47,587 nt of DNA, taken from Candidatus Woesebacteria bacterium GW2011_GWB1_33_38 (GTDB lineage: Bacteria; Patescibacteriota; Microgenomatia; UBA8517). This document shows positions 5,110 through 43,555 of this stretch, one piece after another; the stretch's first letter is position 1; every line of letters begins with the position of its first letter. The notes under the pieces are model-generated. The model made no database searches. It saw only the letters and a list, made by a program, of their open reading frames with translations, and was not told the DNA's origin. The position numbers were made by a program, and so were the translations under genes. The stretch is from NCBI GenBank assembly GCA_000990005.1, contig LBPF01000002.1, positions 1 to 47,587 of the forward strand, given 5' to 3'.

Positions 5110-8100
5110 ATGAAACCAGAAGTCAAAAAAGAGACAAAGAAACCTTCAAAAAAACAAGTAACTGTTAAGATGAGAGTCAACATCTGGACAGTTATTTTTG
5201 GAATTTTATTAACTCTTTTTTTCTTACCTTCTGTTTTTTCTTTACTTGGTATTGGAACAACGGATTTGAAAGTTGATCTATCTACTGCACTCACAGACTT
5301 GAAAGACGAAAAAATAGAAAAGGTATCGATAGAAAAAAACAATTTAATATTAACTTACAAAGATAAAACCACCAAACTTGCTTCAAAAGAAGAAGGTCAA
5401 AGTTTTACAGATTTATTAGTTGCCTCAGAGATTGATCCTAATAAACTGCAATTTACCGTAGTTGACCAGACTTTTGCTAAGGCTATGGCAGAAGTAATTA
5501 GTATAGTTTTACCAATAATACTTCTTGGTGGACTTTTCTTTTACATGATGAAATCTCAAACAAGGGGAGCACAGGATATTTTCTCATTTGGCAAAAGCAA
5601 GGCTAAAATTTTTGCTAAAGGAAAGCAAGATACAACCTTTGCTGATGTTGCAGGAGTTGATGAAGCCAAAAAAGAGTTGGTTGAAGTTGTTGACTTCTTG
5701 AAAAATCCTGATAAATATAAAAAAATTGGAGCAAGAACACCTAAGGGTGTACTTTTATTTGGTCCGTCAGGAGTAGGAAAAACAATGCTTGCTAAGGCTG
5801 TAGCAGGTGAGGCCAATGTTCCATTTTTCTCAATGGCAGGCTCTGAATTTATGGAAATGCTTGTGGGTATTGGTGCCTCAGTTACAGGAGACACACCCAT
5901 ACTTATAAAAGAAAGAGATGGTGTTTGTTTAATTTCCATAGGAGAATTTGTAGATAAGTTTTACAGTAAAAATTCTGAAGGGCTAATGAAAGTAAAAGGT
6001 GTTGAGACTTTAGGTTTAAAACCCGAAGTAAATAAATTTTGGGGATCAAGATCAAATGTAAGGCCTGTCTTTGGAGGCAGTAAATGGCAAGGGGTGGACT
6101 CTGTCTATAGACACAAAGTTAAAGAAATTTATGAGATTAACTTTTTAGGAGGGAAAATTAAAACAACAGCAGACCATAGTGTGTTTGTTAGGGAATATGG
6201 TGGTATTAGAGCAAAAGAAACTAAGGATTTAAGGCCTGGAGATGTTTTAGTAAATCTGCCTATGAATACTAGAGCATGGAATTCTAAATTGAATATAACA
6301 GAACATTTTATAAAAAAGCATGAATTTCCAATAGAATCCCCACAAATTTTACTTGATTTTTGGCAAGACAATCCGGACGAGATTAAAAGTTATGAATATG
6401 CAATGGCAAATCAAGGAACGATGGCTCAGTATGCAATTGCTGAAGAAATAGGAGTATCACAAGCAACGGTTGGTAATTGGCAAAGTGGAAAGCATTTACC
6501 TCAAAGTATAAGTAAAAAGGCGATAAAACTTAGCTTTCCAGATACAGTTAAGGTAACTCCGGAACTAATGAAATTATTTGGGTATTATACAGCTGAAGGC
6601 AGAGGAACAAAAAGTTTAGAATTTACTTTTGGTTCGGACGAAATTGAATTAGTTAAAGATGTAGCGAAATTAATGAACGAAGTATTTGGTTTAAAAGATC
6701 CAAAAATAGTTTATACAGATACTAACAGTATAAGAATAATTTATTATTCTGCGCATTTAGGAAGATTTTTTACTAAACATTGCGGGAATGGAAGTCACAA
6801 TAAACATTTACCTAATTTTATCTGGAGCTTATCAGGAGAATACTTCCTTCAATATCTAAAAGGGTATTGGGAAGGTGATGGTTATAGGACAAAAGAAGGT
6901 AAACTTTCAATGACTTCTGTGAGTCATCAATTAATTAAAGAACTTACTTGGCTTTGTAGTATGCATGGCATTAAAGTGGGCGTAAAACATGAGTTTCAAA
7001 AGGAAGGAAGGAGTATATTACATGGAAAACCTCTTCCTGAAACCGAGTCATGGACTTTGATTATAGGAAAGACAAGTGATCCATTTTCTGAAGGTGAAAA
7101 AGTAGGACATTTTAAAAGAGCAATAATAAAGTCTGTGAATAAAAAGAAATATGATGGTTTTGTATATGATCTGTGTGGAGTTGAAAACGAGGCTTTCTTT
7201 GGTGGAGAATCACCAACCCTTTTGCATAATAGCCGGGTTCGTGACTTATTTGCACAGGCCAAAGCCCAAGCTCCATCAATTATTTTTATTGATGAGATCG
7301 ACGCGATCGGAAGACAACGTGGAAGAAGTGGTCTTGTTGGGGGCCACGATGAAAGAGAACAAACTTTAAATCAAATTTTAGTTGAGATGGATGGATTTAC
7401 TCCAAATGAGTCAGTTATAGTTTTAGCTGCTACCAACAGGGGAGACTTGCTTGATCCTGCATTACTTCGCCCCGGTAGATTTGACCGAAGAGTAACTTTA
7501 GATATGCCTGACAAAGAAGGAAGACAAGCAATTTTGACAATTCACTCTAAAGGTAAAACCTTTGGCAAAAGTATTAATTGGGCAAGGATAGCAGATAGAA
7601 CTGTTGGATTTTCAGGAGCTGATCTTGAGAATATGTTAAATGAAGCAGCAATTGGAGCAGCAAGATTAAATAAACCTGAAATTGATATGACTGACATTGA
7701 AGAATCAGCCACAAAAGTAAAATTAGGTCCTGCCAAGAAAAGATTGCAAAGTGCAGAAGATAAAAAAATTACCGCCTATCATGAGGCAGGGCATGCAATT
7801 GTTACCCATTTCACTAAAGGCATGGACCCTGTTCATAGAATTTCAATTGTTGCTCGTGGCATGAGTTTGGGACATACTTTAATTCCACCAGTAGCAGATA
7901 GAACTCACGATACTAAAACTCGGCTTCTTGATCAAATTACAGCTATGCTTGGAGGACGAGCTGCAGAGCAGTTTGTTTTTCATGAAATGACCTCAGGAGC
8001 TAGTAATGATATTGCCAATGCTACAAGAGTTGCACGAGCCATGGTTATTGAGTGGGGGATGAGTTCATTGGGGCCTGTTAATTTTGGGCCAGATACAAGT

Positions 8101-8376
8101 TCTGGAGAGTTTGGACAGACTGATTGGTATCAAGAAAATGCAGCTAGCCCTGCTATGCAAGAAAAAATTGACAATGAAGTTAGACATATAATGGAGAACG
8201 GCTTAAAAGAAGCAGAAAAATTAGTCAAGAAATATAAGTCTAAGTTAGACTTGGTTGCCGAAGAACTTTTAGTAAAAGAAACTGTTGACAAAGATCAATT
8301 TGAAAAAATTGTAGGTAAAAAGATAAACGGAGAAGGTATGGGAATTTTAAAGGAAGTTACTTCCCAAAAAAGCTAG
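5110..8376 (+). CDS. ftsH: ATP-dependent zinc metalloprotease FtsH, interrupted by an intein
   Basis: Membrane-anchored AAA+ protease degrading misfolded membrane proteins. Two N-terminal membrane segments (about residues 25-47 and 121-145) flank a short extracytoplasmic domain. Walker A is GPSGVGKT at about 218, Walker B IIFIDEID at about 723, the second region of homology is [21 protein letters not shown], the zinc motif HEAGH starts at 891, and the later acidic ligand lies in ASNDIANAT. The 1088-aa frame is long because residues 257-707 form an intein inserted between the pore loop and Walker B; removal leaves about 637 aa, the normal FtsH length. The pore-loop aromatic, usually F in EMFVG, is L here (EMLVG). 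The 3' end overlaps a convergent VTT-protein gene by 30 nt. Confidence 0.97.
5878..7230 (+). other. Intein with LAGLIDADG endonuclease in FtsH
   Basis: In-frame insert of 451 residues. It begins at Ser1 ([10 protein letters not shown], block A), has a block B TADHSVFV, and ends with LLHN followed by Ser+1. Excision rejoins GIGA and SRVRDLF, which restores the highly conserved FtsH stretch GIGASRVRDLF. The interior carries two LAGLIDADG-type motifs (LFGYYTAEG and LKGYWEGDG) and a helix-turn-helix-like segment ([18 protein letters not shown]). Block F ([15 protein letters not shown]) lacks the usual histidine. Class 1 splicing with a Ser nucleophile is inferred; activity is not shown by sequence. 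Confidence 0.95.
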
Positions 8377-37067: not shown

Positions 37068-37129
37068 GGCCCCGTCGTCTACATGGAAACATGAGATGAT
37101 GATTTGTTAGCCAAAATGTTAATTTTGGC
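37068..37129 (+). other. tRNA-Glu-like 5' remnant and hairpin
   Basis: GGCCCCGTCGTCT (37068-37080) matches the first 13 nt of tRNA-Glu (37127-37139) with one difference, but the rest of a tRNA is missing. A perfect 8-bp hairpin, GCCAAAAT-GTTA-ATTTTGGC (37110-37129), then runs into the first bases of the intact tRNA-Glu. It looks like a partial tRNA duplication, as often left by integrative elements. Confidence 0.6.
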
Positions 37130-37197
37130 CCCATCGTCTATCGGTAGGACACGAGACTTTCATTCTCGGAGGCAGGGTCCGACTCCCTGTGGGGTCA
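37127..37197 (+). tRNA. tRNA-Glu (anticodon UUC)
   Basis: Acceptor GGCCCCA pairs with TGGGGTC (37190-37196), the anticodon stem-loop CGAGA-CTTTCAT-TCTCG gives UUC, and the T-arm is CAGGG-TCCGACT-CCCTG. Discriminator A at 37197; no encoded CCA. The last three bases, TCA, are part of the 12-bp direct repeat that bounds the integrative element. Confidence 0.95.
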
Positions 37198-38692
37198 CAC
37201 ATTGAGACAATTTTTCAGAATATGTGGCAGAATGGCGACTGCCACATATGAAATTGACCGTAGAATAGCCCAAATTGTAATTCATGGAGAGTTTTTGATC
37301 GGTTAGGAAAAAGTTCGAGCAGGCACTTCTAACAAAATCTGAAAGATTTTGGTATTCATTTTTCTCAGCAGCGATTTTTTGTGCCTGAAAGGCACTCATT
37401 ATGAAATGTTCTAGTGGTTCGAGCCAGTTGTTGCCATTAGTTTTAATTTTTTCTATTTTCTCTTGTAAATTAAGTTTAGTGTTAAACAACTCGTTCTTTT
37501 TAATTTTGTAATCTTCTTCATTAACAACACCGTCTAAGTATGTGTCTAACAACTTACTTAACTTAATTTCTGTTGTTTGTAGTTCTGTTTCAGTCAAAGC
37601 TGTGTTTTCCTCTGCTTTGACTGATTCTATTTGTTTATCCTTTTCTAATAACTCCAGCCACTTTTCTTTCCATCCTTCAGGTACAATCACTGAACGGACA
37701 TGTTTTCTTAATTGTTTGGCAAGATCAAACTCAGTTATATATTTTTGACTACACTTACCAAATTTTTTAGTACACCTGTAATATGTAAATGTCGGAGAGT
37801 TGCCATTTTTATATTTACGATGATGACTTTCGCCAGTAATAGCACCACCACATTCTCCACATCTTGCCAAACCAATGAAAGGAAAAGTATGGCCGTTATA
37901 CCTAGGTCGTTCAAACCTAGTAATTTGTTTTTGTGTTGCTTCAAAAAGTTGTTTTGAAATAATAGATTTATGAATTCCTTTATGCAGTTCTCCCTTGTAA
38001 TTCATTACTCCTAAATAAAACCTATTGGAAAGCATTTTTTTAATTGTAGTTGTATTTATTTTTCTACCAAGTCTAGTAGTTACTTTTAAGTTAAATAAAT
38101 ACTTTGAAATTGAAACAAAAGAATGCTTTCCTGTTGCAAACATTTCAAAACACTTTTTTATAATTTTACTTCTAACTGGATCAACTGCTATGGTCTTTGT
38201 AATTTTATCGTTTAAATATCCAAGTGGTGCTTCAACTGGCCAAATACCTAACCTAACTTTGTGTCTCATACCTCTTTTTACATTTTCACTTAAATTGTCT
38301 ACATAATATTTAGACTGTGAAAACGCCATACTGAGTACAAATTTACCCTGTGGTGAGTTCTCAAACCAAAATGAGGGGAATTTTAGATCAATCAATTTTC
38401 CAGTGTCCAATGAGTAAATAATCTTTCCACCATCAATACTATTTCTAGCCAAACGATCTGGGTGCCATGACACAATACCTTGAACTTCACCATTTTCTAT
38501 TCTTTCAAGGATTTTGTTAAACAGTGGCCTCCCAGTCGTTTTGGCTGTTCTGCTTTCGCAGACGAAATCTAAAATTTCCAAGTTTTGGTTTTTAGCAAAT
38601 TCTTTTAATTCTGCTATTTGCTGGTCAATGGAAAGAATTTGCTTTGTCTTTTCATCTGTACTTTTTCTGCAATATGCTATGTATTTAATCAT
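37160..38692 (-). CDS. Large serine recombinase
   Basis: 510 aa. The N-terminal resolvase domain starts KYIAYCRKSTDEKTKQILSIDQQ, with the catalytic Ser11 in YCRKS, and continues with GIVSWHPDRLARNSIDGG (catalytic Arg residues). The recombinase domain (GIWPVEAPLGYLNDKITKTIAVDP...) and a zinc ribbon (ARCGECGGAITGE...YRCTKKFGKCSQ) follow, then a coiled-coil segment. It catalyses integration and excision by double-strand cleavage with a phosphoserine link. The frame ends inside tRNA-Glu on the opposite strand, so the last ~12 residues (after SQCV) come from host DNA; in a circular form the frame would run on differently. Confidence 0.96.
   Translation of the reverse strand: MIKYIAYCRKSTDEKTKQILSIDQQIAELKEFAKNQNLEILDFVCESRTAKTTGRPLFNKILERIENGEVQGIVSWHPDRLARNSIDGGKIIYSLDTGKLIDLKFPSFWFENSPQGKFVLSMAFSQSKYYVDNLSENVKRGMRHKVRLGIWPVEAPLGYLNDKITKTIAVDPVRSKIIKKCFEMFATGKHSFVSISKYLFNLKVTTRLGRKINTTTIKKMLSNRFYLGVMNYKGELHKGIHKSIISKQLFEATQKQITRFERPRYNGHTFPFIGLARCGECGGAITGESHHRKYKNGNSPTFTYYRCTKKFGKCSQKYITEFDLAKQLRKHVRSVIVPEGWKEKWLELLEKDKQIESVKAEENTALTETELQTTEIKLSKLLDTYLDGVVNEEDYKIKKNELFNTKLNLQEKIEKIKTNGNNWLEPLEHFIMSAFQAQKIAAEKNEYQNLSDFVRSACSNFFLTDQKLSMNYNLGYSTVNFICGSRHSATYSEKLSQCVTPQGVGPCLRE
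37195..37206 (+). other. Left attachment site (attL)
   Basis: TCACACATTGAG starting in the last three bases of tRNA-Glu; an identical 12-mer lies at 42974-42985. It is the likely crossover region for the adjacent serine recombinase. Confidence 0.7.
37221..37278 (+). repeat. 58-nt imperfect inverted repeat, recombinase 3' side
   Basis: This stretch, within the recombinase 3' coding end, matches the reverse complement of 38782-38839 at 45 of 58 positions without gaps. It contains a perfect hairpin TATGTGGCAG/CTGCCACATA (37221-37230, 37239-37248) and the block CGTAGAATAGCC (37259-37270). Confidence 0.75.
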
Positions 38693-38781
38693 GTTTTTAA
38701 GTTGTTACAGAGCTTTGCTCTGAAAAATTTTTGCATTTTGATTTGTTTTCCTTTTCTCCGACCAACACCTGCAATTTTCAT

Positions 38782-38839
38782 ACAATTGTGGCTATTCTAC
38801 GCTGTTTTCTGTATGTGGCAGTCCCCACCCCGCCACATA
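38782..38839 (-). repeat. 58-nt imperfect inverted repeat, recombinase 5' side
   Basis: Inverted partner of 37221-37278 lying upstream of the recombinase start, with the same internal order: TATGTGGC/GCCACATA hairpin arms (38812-38819, 38832-38839), then GGCTATTCTACG (38790-38801). The two copies bracket the recombinase gene and are candidate recombinase-binding or accessory sites. Confidence 0.75.
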
Positions 38840-38860
38840 TTTATCTGAGAAATCTCTGAT

Positions 38861-38950
38861 TGTGAACTGTTACGAACAAATTCGAACCGAATTTCAAAGA
38901 ACTCGGAACACCTCGCTCACCGCTTCGCGGTTCGCTTAGCTCGGCCTTTG
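38861..38950 (+). repeat. 90-bp inverted repeat, left copy
   Basis: Exact reverse complement of 42889-42978 over all 90 bases. It starts TGTGAACTGTTACGAAC and ends GCTCGGCCTTTG. Internal hairpins include ACCGC-TTC-GCGGT and AAATTCG-type stems. Together the two copies enclose the cargo genes but not the recombinase. Confidence 0.95.
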
Positions 38951-39065
38951 TGTCTCGTTTTTTAACAAAGTGCCTGCCGAACTTCGTTTTGTTCTGTTCT
39001 TAAATCAAAATGCAAAAATTTTTAAAGTTCTGTCTGTCTTATAGTTTTTGTTCTCGTATTTTGAC

Positions 39066-39240: not shown

Positions 39241-40458
39241 ATGTTTTTTAATAAACCAATCAAGGAAATAAAATTTAATGATGTACTAAGTTTTTGTGAA
39301 CTAAAAACAAAAGAAAATTTTGCACTTGATTACAAAGAGGAATTTCCAAAAAACCTAGAAAAAACTATTGCTAGTTTCGCAAATACATACGGAGGATTAA
39401 TTATTATTGGTGTTGAAGAAAATGACGGAAAACCAGTAGATAAGCCAAAAGGAATTAAGTGGGAACGAGGTTTAGAAGAAAGAGTTTATAGCATAACAAC
39501 AAGCAATATTACACCACCCATCTTTCCAGAGGTACAAGTTTGTGATCCTGTTAAAGATAAAACTTTTGTTATAATACAAATACCACAATCTACTAATACA
39601 CCACACGCCATTGAAAATAACACCAAAGTTTATTCGAGAACTGGGAATATCTCTACCCCAGAAGAATTAATTAATATTAATGAATTACATTGGCTTGCAA
39701 GACATAGAGAGAATGCTATCAACTTAAGGAATGAAATTATAAATTCGGTCAATGATCGATATTATTCATTGATTGAATACGGCAAAGTAAATATCGAATT
39801 TGGCGAATTAAATATGTATATTATTCCAGCATATCCAACTTATCTAAATGTTGACTTATTAAAATTAAAAAACGAAATAACTTCTTTAGAAGTAAATACA
39901 TTGGGGAATTCAGTATTTCCTTCATTCATGAATACGTCTATTAAAATAATGCAAAATGGACTATATCTTTTTATTCATAATAAAGGCGATCTTGGCGAAT
40001 TTACAGAATATACAGCATTTAACACAAGCGGTTTACTTTTCCATTCGCAAGACTTTGGTCGAATTAAGAAAGGTAACGATGATCTTCCAAAAAAGACAGT
40101 TTATTTATCACAAATAGTTGCACAATACTTTGATTTTTTACATTTCTATAAAAATTTTGCGAATCAAATTAATATTCATGGAGATTATAAAATTCATGTT
40201 GCCTTATTAAAGATGTTCAAGGTGCTTCCTGTGTACATTGGATATAATAACTTTTGGGGCGAAGATCCTGAACCATTTATGGATAAACGATATATTTACG
40301 ACAGAATACTTACAACTGAAGTTTTTAATAGCAAAGAAAGCATAATTAATGAAGTTGCTGATTTTGCAGTTGATTTACAATTAGGTCTAGGTTTTCCTTA
40401 TACAAAAGATCAAGCAATTAAATGGCTCGAAGAAAAATCACAAAATATAAATTTTTGA
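39241..40458 (+). CDS. AlbA_2 (Schlafen-type) domain protein
   Basis: 405 aa. Residues about 14-135 carry an AlbA_2/Schlafen ATP-binding-like domain: LDYKEEFPKNLEKTIASFANTYGGLIIIGVEENDGKP, then TFVIIQIPQSTNTPHAIENNTKVYSRTGNISTP. The remaining 270 residues are a long alpha/beta region with no recognised family (FINQINIHGDYKIH-type segments). AlbA_2 proteins include putative helicase-associated regulators and nuclease-like Schlafen proteins, and occur in defence and mobile loci. It is the first cargo gene, with its own promoter, and is followed 39 nt later by a smaller gene. Confidence 0.88.
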   Translation: MFFNKPIKEIKFNDVLSFCELKTKENFALDYKEEFPKNLEKTIASFANTYGGLIIIGVEENDGKPVDKPKGIKWERGLEERVYSITTSNITPPIFPEVQVCDPVKDKTFVIIQIPQSTNTPHAIENNTKVYSRTGNISTPEELININELHWLARHRENAINLRNEIINSVNDRYYSLIEYGKVNIEFGELNMYIIPAYPTYLNVDLLKLKNEITSLEVNTLGNSVFPSFMNTSIKIMQNGLYLFIHNKGDLGEFTEYTAFNTSGLLFHSQDFGRIKKGNDDLPKKTVYLSQIVAQYFDFLHFYKNFANQINIHGDYKIHVALLKMFKVLPVYIGYNNFWGEDPEPFMDKRYIYDRILTTEVFNSKESIINEVADFAVDLQLGLGFPYTKDQAIKWLEEKSQNINF

Positions 40459-40497
40459 CATATTGCTACAAGTGTATTTAATTGATATAGTAAATGT

Positions 40498-40836
40498 ATG
40501 GGTGAAGATCAAGTAACTGGAACAAATTCGACAATATCAATAAGCGTTTTGGCTGGCGAAACCATGAACAGTTTGTTGAATAGCTGGGTTGCAGAACTAG
40601 AAGTTCAAGACAAAGATAATTTACAAAACGAAGTAAATAATTTTGTAGAACTTATTAAAAAAATAACACCATTAGATATCGAAAACAAAAATATAAGCCA
40701 AGAGATAATTACATCAACTTCAAAGATATTGGCACAACTTACTAACGATCAAAAAGCCACAGATTCATTTTATAATACATTGAACTTATGTATTGTAGGT
40801 TTAGGAACAAGATTAAAATCTATTAACAATGAGTGA
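40498..40836 (+). CDS. Unknown cargo protein, 112 aa
   Basis: Acidic, helical protein (MGEDQVTGTNSTISISVLAGETMNSLLNSWVAELEVQDKDN...) without membrane segment or recognised motif. It overlaps the J-domain gene by 8 nt, so the two are probably coupled. Helix-rich stretches (LQNEVNNFVELIKKITPLDIENKNISQEIITSTSKILAQL) suggest a bundle or adaptor. A TA-like or J-protein co-factor role is possible but unsupported. Confidence 0.75.
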   Translation: MGEDQVTGTNSTISISVLAGETMNSLLNSWVAELEVQDKDNLQNEVNNFVELIKKITPLDIENKNISQEIITSTSKILAQLTNDQKATDSFYNTLNLCIVGLGTRLKSINNE

Positions 40837-41713
40837 AACACCACCACAAGTACCAACAGAGAAAGTACAACCACAAAAAAAAGAGTTGTATAAATTACCA
40901 CCAGAGCGAAGAAGGCTTGAGGCTGTACGAAAAGTTCATGAGATGAGAATAGTAAATGTAGGAAATAGAGGTGAGGAACCATGGCCAATAGAACTACGTG
41001 GTTACCAAGAACATGCAGTAGCACTTTTAGATCTTGTCTACAAGAATTCAAAACCTGACTCTGTAGGAGTAATTATCAATGGTAGTATGACTGCAGATCC
41101 AGAGTTAGCAAAAAAAATAAGAGAGCATAAAGGTTTACTTGCCGTTCATGGGGGAAATAGAGAAACAACGGTATTGAATATTGAGGAAAAACAAGGCGGC
41201 GAGTATGTTTGTAAATTTGGACATTCAGCTAAGGGTTCTAGTTTAGATAGAGCGCCTAATGGCAGTGTTAGTGTAAATGTTAATAATGATCCAAATGCTA
41301 TCACCGATGAAAGTTTATTTAAATTATATAAATTGATTGGGAAGGTTGATTTTGTTGAAAGTCTCGGAATTAGAGCAGAACTTCGCGGTAGCGGTGCAGC
41401 ACGAGCCAATTCTAAACCAATTGATCCTGAAGGACATTACTCATCGTTAGGGTTAAACCCATATGCACTGAGGTTTTTAGACGAACAATATTTCAACACT
41501 CTCGTTTCTGGAATGAAAAGAGAAGTTGCAAGAAAGTTACATCCTGATTCTGGAAATACAGCTACGGAAGAGGAAACAGAATATTTAAGAAAAATGTTAA
41601 AAGCATGCGATGTACTAGAGAAACCTGATAAACGGAAAGCATATTCAAGTTGGCTTAATTCAGGAAATGGCGAAGCAAAACAATCTCCAAAAGAAGAATG
41701 GAAAGAAATATAA
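40829..41713 (+). CDS. J-domain protein with novel N-terminal domain
   Basis: 294 aa. The last 85 residues form a J-domain: YSSLGLNPYALRFLDEQYFNTL, the hallmark HPD at residues 238-240 (RKLHPDSG), and ACDVLEKPDKRKAYSSWL. The N-terminal ~200 residues are not recognised. They contain a basic helical lead (PPERRRLEAVRKVHEM) and an alpha/beta core (VGVIINGSMTADPELAKKIREHKGLLAVHGG; LGIRAELRGSGAARANSK). A J-domain normally recruits and stimulates a DnaK chaperone; no DnaK is encoded on the element, so a host chaperone would be used. Confidence 0.85.
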   Translation: MSETPPQVPTEKVQPQKKELYKLPPERRRLEAVRKVHEMRIVNVGNRGEEPWPIELRGYQEHAVALLDLVYKNSKPDSVGVIINGSMTADPELAKKIREHKGLLAVHGGNRETTVLNIEEKQGGEYVCKFGHSAKGSSLDRAPNGSVSVNVNNDPNAITDESLFKLYKLIGKVDFVESLGIRAELRGSGAARANSKPIDPEGHYSSLGLNPYALRFLDEQYFNTLVSGMKREVARKLHPDSGNTATEEETEYLRKMLKACDVLEKPDKRKAYSSWLNSGNGEAKQSPKEEWKEI

Positions 41714-41717
41714 TTAT

Positions 41718-42395
41718 TTAAGTTAATCTAGTGAGAACTTTTTGATGTCTTGCGCCTCTATAGATTGGCATTTTTAATTCCTTAGCCATTTTATTATTCA
41801 TTTCAGCAGCTTCAATTCCCAATCGATGTCTTTGTATTCGTTCACCATGATTTTTTGCTAATGCTAGCATGTAACCTCTTGAAATTTCTCTTGCTCCCAA
41901 AAGATTTGGTGTTTCTTTACTTTTAAATGCAAAATAATAATATTCTGGATCAACTAATCCTTCAAAAAAATGTCCATAGTCTTTTTGAACAAGAGGTATC
42001 AAATCTTCTGTGTTAAATGGTGCAACCACGGGGTGTTTGTGAATAACGCCAACCATTACTTCGGGTGCTGTAACTATTCCCTGTGTTGCCACATGATCTT
42101 TTGACCCTTGAGTATTTACAGTTTGAACTAGCAATTTTTGTCTTTTACCATCCGTCTTAATAATTCGACCATTTTCTTCAGGGTGTGTAAACATAAATTC
42201 GACATCACCTCGTTCTATTTTTGATTGATGGAATACCCCTTCCATAACTTGCATCCATGTTTCATTAAGTACAATTTTGTCAGGAAAGTTAATTTCTGCT
42301 TCAAGTTTCTTTTGTGCAGATTTTAAGAGCATATCTTTTGTTTGCTCAATAGTCCATTCTGTCTTTGATCCTTTTTCTTCTCCGCCTAATGACAT
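41718..42395 (-). CDS. Possible JAMM/MPN-like protein
   Basis: 225 aa on the strand opposite to the other cargo, convergent with the J-domain gene (4-nt gap). VMVGVIHKHPVVAPFNTEDLIPLV (His119, His121, Asp131) resembles the JAMM zinc motif H-x-H-x7-S-x2-D, but the Ser position is Thr and the spacing to Asp is one residue short. An upstream Glu (VMEGVFHQ or RGDVEFMF) could complete the site. If real it would be a metalloprotease or deubiquitinase-like enzyme. The C-terminal helical region (GYMLALAKNHGERIQRHRLGIEAAEMNNKMAKEL) is unassigned. Alternative: an unrelated hydrolase. Confidence 0.7.
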   Translation of the reverse strand: MSLGGEEKGSKTEWTIEQTKDMLLKSAQKKLEAEINFPDKIVLNETWMQVMEGVFHQSKIERGDVEFMFTHPEENGRIIKTDGKRQKLLVQTVNTQGSKDHVATQGIVTAPEVMVGVIHKHPVVAPFNTEDLIPLVQKDYGHFFEGLVDPEYYYFAFKSKETPNLLGAREISRGYMLALAKNHGERIQRHRLGIEAAEMNNKMAKELKMPIYRGARHQKVLTRLT

Positions 42396-42447
42396 AATTT
42401 ATTTTACCTTATTTTATAAGTGTTTATTTTGACGGTTATATTTTATT

Positions 42448-42845
42448 TCCTGCCCATGCACATGGCGTAAGCCATACCCCTGTAAGCTTTGGGGTGTTTT
42501 GTGCTGGGCAGGATTCCCGACAGGGAATATTTCAGGAAGCAATGTGGGTTGTGTTGTAGCTGTAGCTTCTAACCAAGTGCTGTGCGTAGCACCTATGCCT
42601 TGTTTTCAGCACTTGAGTAGTTGCTCTTTAGGGCAAATTGCGACTGAAATGGTGTTTGGGTTACCGTTGCGGTTACCGCAACCGCAAACCGTCAACCGTT
42701 AGACCGCTATAAGGCCGTGAATACGGCCAGTTGACGGTGTTCGTTGAGGTGCTTACGGTAACCCGTCAGGCTTCCGTTGTTCTGTGGTATAATTGCTTTG
42801 TTCTTTGAAGCTATGTGTTGCTGCTATAGTTTGGCGTAGCCAAAC
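42448..42845. ncRNA. Hairpin-rich non-coding region, candidate structured RNA or replication/transfer site
   Basis: No plausible gene in 42396-43027. Helices seen: TCCTGCCCA(t)GCACA with TGTGCTGGGCAGGA (42448-42462, 42501-42513), enclosing TGGC-GTAA-GCCA and ATACCCC/GGGGTGT; ATTCCC-GACA-GGGAAT (42513-42528); AAGTGCTG/CAGCACTT (42575-42582, 42607-42614) with GTGC-GTA-GCAC; GGGTTACCG/CGGTAACCC (42658-42666, 42756-42764) enclosing GTTGCGG-TTA-CCGCAAC, ACCGTCAAC/GTTGACGGT and GGCCGT-GAAT-ACGGCC; GTTTGGC-GTA-GCCAAAC (42829-42845). TATAAT with TGG before it at 42788-42793 is a possible plus-strand promoter. Class unknown. Confidence 0.55.
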
Positions 42846-42888
42846 AACAAAAAATCGCGCTGAGTTAAAATGTGTTAAAAAGCGAGGC

Positions 42889-42978
42889 CAAAGGCCGAGC
42901 TAAGCGAACCGCGAAGCGGTGAGCGAGGTGTTCCGAGTTCTTTGAAATTCGGTTCGAATTTGTTCGTAACAGTTCACA
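42889..42978 (-). repeat. 90-bp inverted repeat, right copy
   Basis: Exact inverted partner of 38861-38950, ending 7 nt before the end of the right attachment repeat and overlapping its first five bases. It contains ACCGC-GAA-GCGGT-type hairpins. Perfect identity over 90 bp in a drifting AT-rich genome suggests recent duplication or ongoing gene conversion. Confidence 0.95.
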
Positions 42979-42985
42979 CATTGAG
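42974..42985 (+). other. Right attachment site (attR)
   Basis: Second copy of TCACACATTGAG, overlapping the end of the right 90-bp repeat and followed by chromosomal-type sequence (CTTTTTTAATTAG). Confidence 0.7.
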
Positions 42986-43027
42986 CTTTTTTAATTAGTA
43001 TCATTATTGCAGTTCGCTTAACGGAAC

Positions 43028-43531
43028 GTGAATAAAAACATTTTTAATTCTAATCCCGACATATATTTAAATTACGGCTATTTAATGCTCCCAATTAGTC
43101 TAAATATAGTTTCAAAAATAAAAATTGGAACCAAAACATTTTATTCTAAAAATGGATACCATATTAGTTTGCTTTGTCTCGAAGAATTTTCAGAATCTGA
43201 TCAAAAGAAGGTTCTAAACTTTGCTCAAAAATATCCAGTAAAGCTTAAAAAAATATCCAAGATTTATCGGTTAGTAACGCAAGAAAACCAACAGTCAATA
43301 ATCGTTCGTGTACATCTTTATGAATTGAAGAGATTGATTTTTGCTTTTAATAAACATTTTGGTTACAACTTTACTTATCCACCAACCCATATAACCTTGT
43401 TTACCTTAAAAGATCAATATGGCATTGCTGTCAATTCAACCGAAGAATACCGTCGGCTTACCCGTCAAATTATTCAGAAGGATTGTCAAAGACTAGCCAA
43501 GTCTTTCAAACTTATTAGATTTGCAATTTAA
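43028..43531 (+). CDS. 2H-phosphoesterase-like protein
   Basis: 167 aa from GTG 43028. Two H-x-S/T-x motifs, YHISLL (His45) and THITLF (His121), are spaced as in the 2H phosphoesterase/LigT-like superfamily, whose members cleave cyclic or 2'-5' phosphodiesters in RNA or nucleotides. The rest of the sequence (GYLMLPISLNIVSKIKIG; EYRRLTRQIIQKDCQRLAKSF) fits an alpha/beta fold. It is the first chromosomal gene beyond the integrative element, so its native promoter may have been separated from it by the insertion. Confidence 0.75.
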   Translation: MNKNIFNSNPDIYLNYGYLMLPISLNIVSKIKIGTKTFYSKNGYHISLLCLEEFSESDQKKVLNFAQKYPVKLKKISKIYRLVTQENQQSIIVRVHLYELKRLIFAFNKHFGYNFTYPPTHITLFTLKDQYGIAVNSTEEYRRLTRQIIQKDCQRLAKSFKLIRFAI

Positions 43532-43555
43532 TATTGATTGATATTAAATTAAACT

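Follow-up and report, generated by a model that had tools for sequence, protein, structure and literature searches.

The window, the whole stretch of 47,587 nucleotides that was analysed (contig C2), belongs to a 0.85-Mb genome of 14 contigs. Near its right-hand end, a tRNA-Glu gene is followed by a convergent gene for a large serine recombinase, a block of variable cargo genes and a non-coding stretch dense in hairpins (Table 1). Homologues of the recombinase are 45-81% identical and convergent with a tRNA gene wherever both are present. The window's recombinase reached none of the curated cut-offs for CcrA, CcrB, CcrC and XisF (at best 110 bits against 375 for XisF and 105 against 900 for CcrB), and an SCC-type (Ccr) or XisF element was rejected. 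No recombination directionality factor was recognised. The recombinase reading frame terminates inside tRNA-Glu (37160-37198), an overlap repeated in other elements; the protein thus takes its final residues from the target site, and excision would alter them.

Homologues of the window's cargo were absent from the first set of related loci. Elsewhere the cargo is ordinary and variable, including an MFS transporter and an EamA transporter (Pfam), together with proteins that, on reading their sequences, we take to be aldo-keto-reductase-like, methyltransferase/NUDIX-like and others. In a b unit at 5990-6990 of locus L096 (G258:C35), a 332-aa cargo protein may, judging from its sequence, be a reverse transcriptase. 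PADLOC returned only a weak DndD stretch from the cargo (E 0.0025), which we set aside, and no phage genes were recognised in these elements. Elsewhere in the window (5110-8376), an FtsH-like protease gene (1088 aa) appears by eye to hold an intein-like in-frame insertion.

Table 1. Features of the element and its surroundings, in window coordinates
Feature	Position	Strand	Remarks
tRNA-Glu	37127-37198	+	ARAGORN; elements attach at its 3' end (attB half of attL); unoccupied in sister genome G001
attL: core TCACA plus arm a (outer copy)	37195-37279		inverted repeat of 38781-38853 (77-80%); junction alignment
Large serine recombinase, 510 aa	37160-38692	-	convergent with tRNA; Pfam Resolvase, Recombinase, Zn_ribbon_recom
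Arm a' (inner copy)	38781-38860		inverted-repeat and junction alignments
Arm b	38861-38967		97% inverted copy of 42873-42978; a' plus b form a complete inverted attP, core ~38861-38866
Pseudoknot-like segment	39072-39156	-	three interleaved helices; between arm b and cargo; strand predicted from A.C excess on +
Variable cargo	39241-42395		Schlafen/AlbA_2 protein, 112-aa protein, DnaJ-like protein (+), 225-aa protein (-)
Module A	42448-42651	+	bulged 14-bp stem with two hairpins; TTCCC/GGGAA hairpin; multi-branch fold closed by ATTTCAG/CTGAAAT
Module B	42655-42771	+	CGG-N-CCG palindrome cluster plus GGCCGTGAATACGGCC hairpin; stems vary with compensation
Module C	42785-42978
Predicted extended -10 promoter	42785-42793	+	TGGTATAAT; points outwards to attR
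Terminal hairpin	42829-42845	+	GTTTGGCGTAGCCAAAC then AAAAAATCGCGC; stem differs from element to element, with small loop and TCGCGC conserved (class-wide right-end comparison)
Arm b', P arm of attR	42873-42978		GCGA-hairpin-GAGC motifs; ends TTCGAATTTGTTCGTAACAGTTCACA
attR core TCACA plus CATTGAG	42974-42985		CATTGAG is the first bases of a probable older unit's a arm; TCACACATTGAG also at 37195-37206
Probable older-unit remnant	42986-43541	+	167-aa gene at 43028-43531; absent from sister genome G001

Attachment arms and insertion at the tRNA gene

Across the class, 11 complete cases have a common layout, which reads tRNA 3' end / a - large serine recombinase - a' / b - cargo - b' / chromosome. 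Their junctions run from the tRNA through TCAC into a at the left, from b' through the core into a (inverted) at the centre, and from b' through TTCAC into the flank at the right, the TTCAC core that is shared with the tRNA 3' end being the meeting point of both arm pairs. In each of these 11 cases, the central a'-core-b is an intact attP lying in inverted orientation inside the integrated element. Neither the orientation of recombinase to tRNA nor the left/right order of the structured ends ever flips in the cases seen, which argues against an inversion switch of cargo or recombinase. The terminal motif GTTCGAATTTGTTCGNAANNGTTCAC is found in 39 of 374 class genomes (a reversed control gave 1 match), and the paired ends within a locus face outwards and are usually identical in sequence. 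Beyond the class the motif is rare, and the phylum sample has it in two genomes. Viral contigs scanned for exact patterns and for the end motif gave no match, nor did phage and plasmid records searched with blastn.

Within most elements the arms are 92-100% identical, compared with about 65% between elements; those of L038 and L103, for example, are perfect. Over the first 90 nt from the core, mean identity within elements is 98% for b/b' and 95% for a/a', against 67% and 63% between elements; further inside it is 40-54%, and left and right are unrelated at 160-260 nt from the core. The window's own element has b and b' identical over 90 nt, whereas a and a' match there at only 70% (70-80% over all comparisons), and on the latter account it may be inactive. 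Since serine recombinase sites are normally about 50 bp, arms of 80-200 bp exceed the expected length. Gene conversion, or pairing within a single strand, presumably homogenises them.

Long perfect inverted repeats on both sides of the cargo could also be read as the terminal repeats of an ordinary transposon, with the recombinase an unrelated neighbour. This we regard as very improbable, since no target-site duplication was seen and the outer flank is conserved. Outside b, the recombinase's own a' arm recurs element after element, and both arm pairs share TTCAC, the core matching the end of the tRNA.

In the sister genome G001, of the same genus, the empty site is preserved as a tRNA-Glu gene in which GGGGTCACA is followed by AATTTTAG, directly before the downstream gene. 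In G041, a unit with different cargo has GGGGTCACA joined to CATTGAG at its left and AACAGTTCACA joined to AAAAATAT at its right. As read from these junctions, insertion at tRNA-Glu is precise. The window's attR is followed by CATTGAG, with which an a arm starts, and by a 167-aa gene that has no counterpart in any of 47 other genomes searched (G001 and 46 others). This segment (42979-43541) is probably what remains of a unit inserted earlier, and new units would appear to enter between the tRNA and older units, as the stacked units of the Patescibacteria contig L049 also suggest. In L049 (1-5607), two b-cargo-b' blocks are separated by an a arm without recombinase in a cassette-array-like arrangement; no overlap of termini marked it as a circular contig. 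Sequence comparison establishes the boundaries of the element, its attL/attP/attR geometry, the empty site, the concerted arms and the compensatory hairpins described below.

The hairpin-dense end and its modules

A first, sequence-only reading had described the stretch at 42396-43027 as far denser in helices than its surroundings, and this proved correct. Against dinucleotide shuffles, 42440-42850 folds with z-scores of -5.7 as + strand RNA and -5.8 as - strand RNA, and 42400-43027 folds as DNA with a z-score of -7.9, while 16 random 300-nt windows of the same contig range from -2.8 to +1.8. Ten perfect hairpins lie in 42396-42990. Structure is uneven along the region, with the sub-window at ~42579-42878 alone giving a z-score of -2.0. 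The 14-bp bulged stem enclosing two hairpins is real (42449-42512) and is kept in six other full-length copies. The 9-bp stem GGGTTACCG/CGGTAACCC (42658-42666 / 42756-42764), proposed to enclose three more hairpins, is shared by the window and a handful of close copies; most homologues form competing local hairpins such as CTGACGG..CCGTCAG instead. The extent of the feature also needs revision, as the functional unit stops at attR (42978) and not at 43027, and its inverted partner lies outside, at 38861-38967. The hairpins themselves are real, far above chance and conserved in copies from seven or more Woesebacteria-type genomes.

When 95 relatives were searched at the DNA level, the region turned up in several genomes from the window's own family, with four copies in G012. 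Homologous sequences bear the names Woesebacteria, Microgenomatus and Patescibacteria, which makes the window's genome one of the Microgenomates type, a group of ultra-small bacteria within the Patescibacteria. Their alignment splits the region into modules A, B and C, the last of which falls into two sequence classes, and the order A-B-C-b' is maintained in full copies. Using a covariance model, we found ten full copies of module A in 6 of 50 family genomes, and no copy outside its own family in the 374-genome class sample. L049 has one more, and L025 and L027 are truncated copies. Many elements of the class are without A and B, which are therefore dispensable for integration as such. Rich in hairpins and mostly restricted to a single family, A and B are an addition that moves together with the cassette. 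At 4780-5200 of L035 (contig C6 of the window's own genome, near 143116), a B module and a class-2 C end occur without module A, perhaps as a degenerate older unit.

Counted over the helices of the homologues, compensatory cells number 11 for A, 10 for B and 24 for C of class 2, compared with 0-5 in column-shuffled controls; a second count on A gave 10 double-change cells against 2.5 in shuffles. These changes lie mainly in local hairpins. The long-range stems of A, ATTTCAG/CTGAAAT and CCAAGTGCT/AGCACTTGG, are nearly invariant, and their bases rank with the best conserved in the region. In the palindromes of module B, the half-sites change together within one copy.

Right ends have a regular order, in which an extended -10 is followed by a hairpin with an element-specific stem and then by AAAAATCGCGC. 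Of 18 right ends, 12 have a TG-N-TA.. element at about the corresponding position, where 1.5 would be expected. A and B lie upstream of this predicted outward promoter, and a transcript from it, starting just inside b', would cross attR into neighbouring DNA; the promoter may well be used. The adjacency of B to the conserved extended -10, and the joint change of its half-sites, would be expected if the end were palindromic regulatory and recombination DNA only, with B an operator cluster of the outward promoter and A a functionless hitch-hiking repeat, which would also suit the restriction of A to one family and its truncated copies. This account is unlikely in our view, as the strong conservation of A's long-range stems is unexpected in a passenger.

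RNA or DNA as the acting form

The sequence-only reading had offered a large structured ncRNA, a single-strand origin or transfer site, or a cluster of small palindromic repeats. The last of these captures one part of the feature, in that the final ~105 bp are one arm of an inverted repeat, but the main point, which could not be seen without relatives, is that the stretch is probably where a serine-recombinase element that targets tRNA genes ends in attR. For the first, conserved structure with compensation is found as predicted, but the suggested comparison with large ncRNA families such as GOLLD, ROOL and OLE gave no match. Across all Rfam families nothing reached the gathering threshold, and nothing credible appeared up to E 5.

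That A and B, perhaps with C, are a genuine large structured ncRNA carried by the cassette and made as a + strand transcript is nonetheless consistent with the compensated local helices, with a + strand RNA fold that is the more stable in 14 of 14 copies, and with some GTAA, GCAA and GGAA tetraloops. The folding preference is partly expected because the + strand is G/T-rich, and the window's z-score is equal on both strands. In the conserved helices of A, B and C, non-Watson-Crick cells on the + strand comprise 23 G.U and 22 A.C, a ratio that differs only modestly from the 20:9 of the tRNA control at the same loci. Alignment of the homologues showed no conserved promoter-like sequence upstream of A, the cargo gene adjoining A may have either orientation, and truncated copies exist. 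We therefore hold an ncRNA to be rather unlikely.

The C(GNA)G loop is exceptionally stable in DNA. It accounts for 26 of 57 triloops in the region's copies, whereas GNRA accounts for 9 of 54 tetraloops. Because of the lack of wobble strand bias, the few GNRA loops, the many C(GNA)G triloops and the lack of a conserved promoter for A, we lean weakly towards A and B acting at the DNA level rather than as a large ncRNA, the strand-bias and loop-type arguments being drawn from few sequences. Based on these comparisons, A and B are best described as unclassified structured nucleic acid. A single-strand origin or transfer site would be compatible with DNA-level hairpins and the inverted attachment arms; no Pfam Rep or relaxase was found among the cargo proteins scanned.

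As a candidate RNA, the pseudoknot-like segment at the other end of the cargo is more promising than the hairpin-dense stretch. In five sequences (the window, L022, L024, L026 and L037), 13 of its 33 pairs have compensatory changes, a result matched in 0 of 500 shuffles. Its non-standard cells on the + strand are 9 A.C and 3 G.U, an A.C excess that suggests an RNA on the minus strand, towards the recombinase, of which it is possibly a leader. Left inner ends in elements of other families also fold well, with z-scores of -3 to -6 in several. Lying beside the recombinase, the pseudoknot is a candidate control point.

Mechanism and relation to known systems

Taken together, the hairpin-dense stretch is probably the right-hand, cargo-distal, non-coding attR end of a cassette inserted by a large serine recombinase at tRNA 3' ends. 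The last ~105 bp of the cassette (b') are the P arm of the attachment site, now attR. This b' is kept nearly identical to the inverted b, which with a' forms a spare inverted attP beside the recombinase. A and B may act as folded or cruciform DNA in propagation or regulation of the element, rather than as a large RNA in its own right. Presumably the recombinase still acts in some elements and the spare attP is functional.

The arms also permit a bolder proposal, in which cassettes pass through a single-stranded circle, a:a' and b:b' pair into a double-stranded attP between loops of recombinase and cargo, and the A-B-C end serves the single-stranded stage as a second-strand start or early promoter. 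Both arm pairs are complementary in 11 elements, the weakest pair being that of the window's own a. Serine recombinases normally cut all four strands, and such cutting would leave hairpin-capped chromosome ends, which disfavours this route; we consider it quite improbable. If true, it would be a serine-recombinase counterpart, in Microgenomates, of folded-strand integration by integron attC and CTXphi.

Gene gain by host-dependent Patescibacteria is little understood. Class-wide, tRNA-anchored cassettes that bring in one or several ordinary cargo genes, and that have a spare inverted attP and concerted arms, would offer a specific path for it. The odd geometry poses the testable question of why an integrated serine-recombinase element should hold a second, reversed attP, and the hairpin-dense end may be a marker of such elements in genomes. 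No published description of the inverted-attP layout was found in the open literature, a weak absence as few subscription papers were covered. The element is thus of a known integrative kind, with an internal arrangement that is new as far as we have found.

GOLLD, ROOL and OLE likewise comprise hundreds of nucleotides of dense structure, whereas the stretch described here has no Rfam match and is known from sequence alone. Integron cassettes share with these elements a recombinase platform, exchangeable ordinary cargo, foldable attachment DNA and stacked units (in L049 and, with its probable older remnant, in the window). However, the recombinase here is of the serine type (Pfam) and not a tyrosine recombinase, the arms are inverted rather than direct, and every unit may come with a recombinase of its own; neither IntI nor attC was seen in the element, and an integron was rejected.

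The closest likeness is to large serine integrase elements in tRNA genes, which also have a terminal large serine recombinase, insertion at the tRNA 3' end, a short shared core, attL and attR, and a clean empty site. A single attP that is split on integration is usual in such elements, though not strictly defining, whereas here a second, complete and inverted attP lies intact between recombinase and cargo in 11 complete cases, and the arms are concerted over 80-200 bp with hairpin-rich ends. In CTXphi, two inverted attP copies pair in the single-stranded genome and form a double-stranded attP (PMC3089051). The present elements resemble it in having two attP copies of opposite orientation that are able to pair in one strand. 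In CTXphi, however, the tyrosine recombinase XerC exchanges a single strand pair, whereas a serine recombinase, which cuts both strands, is found here.
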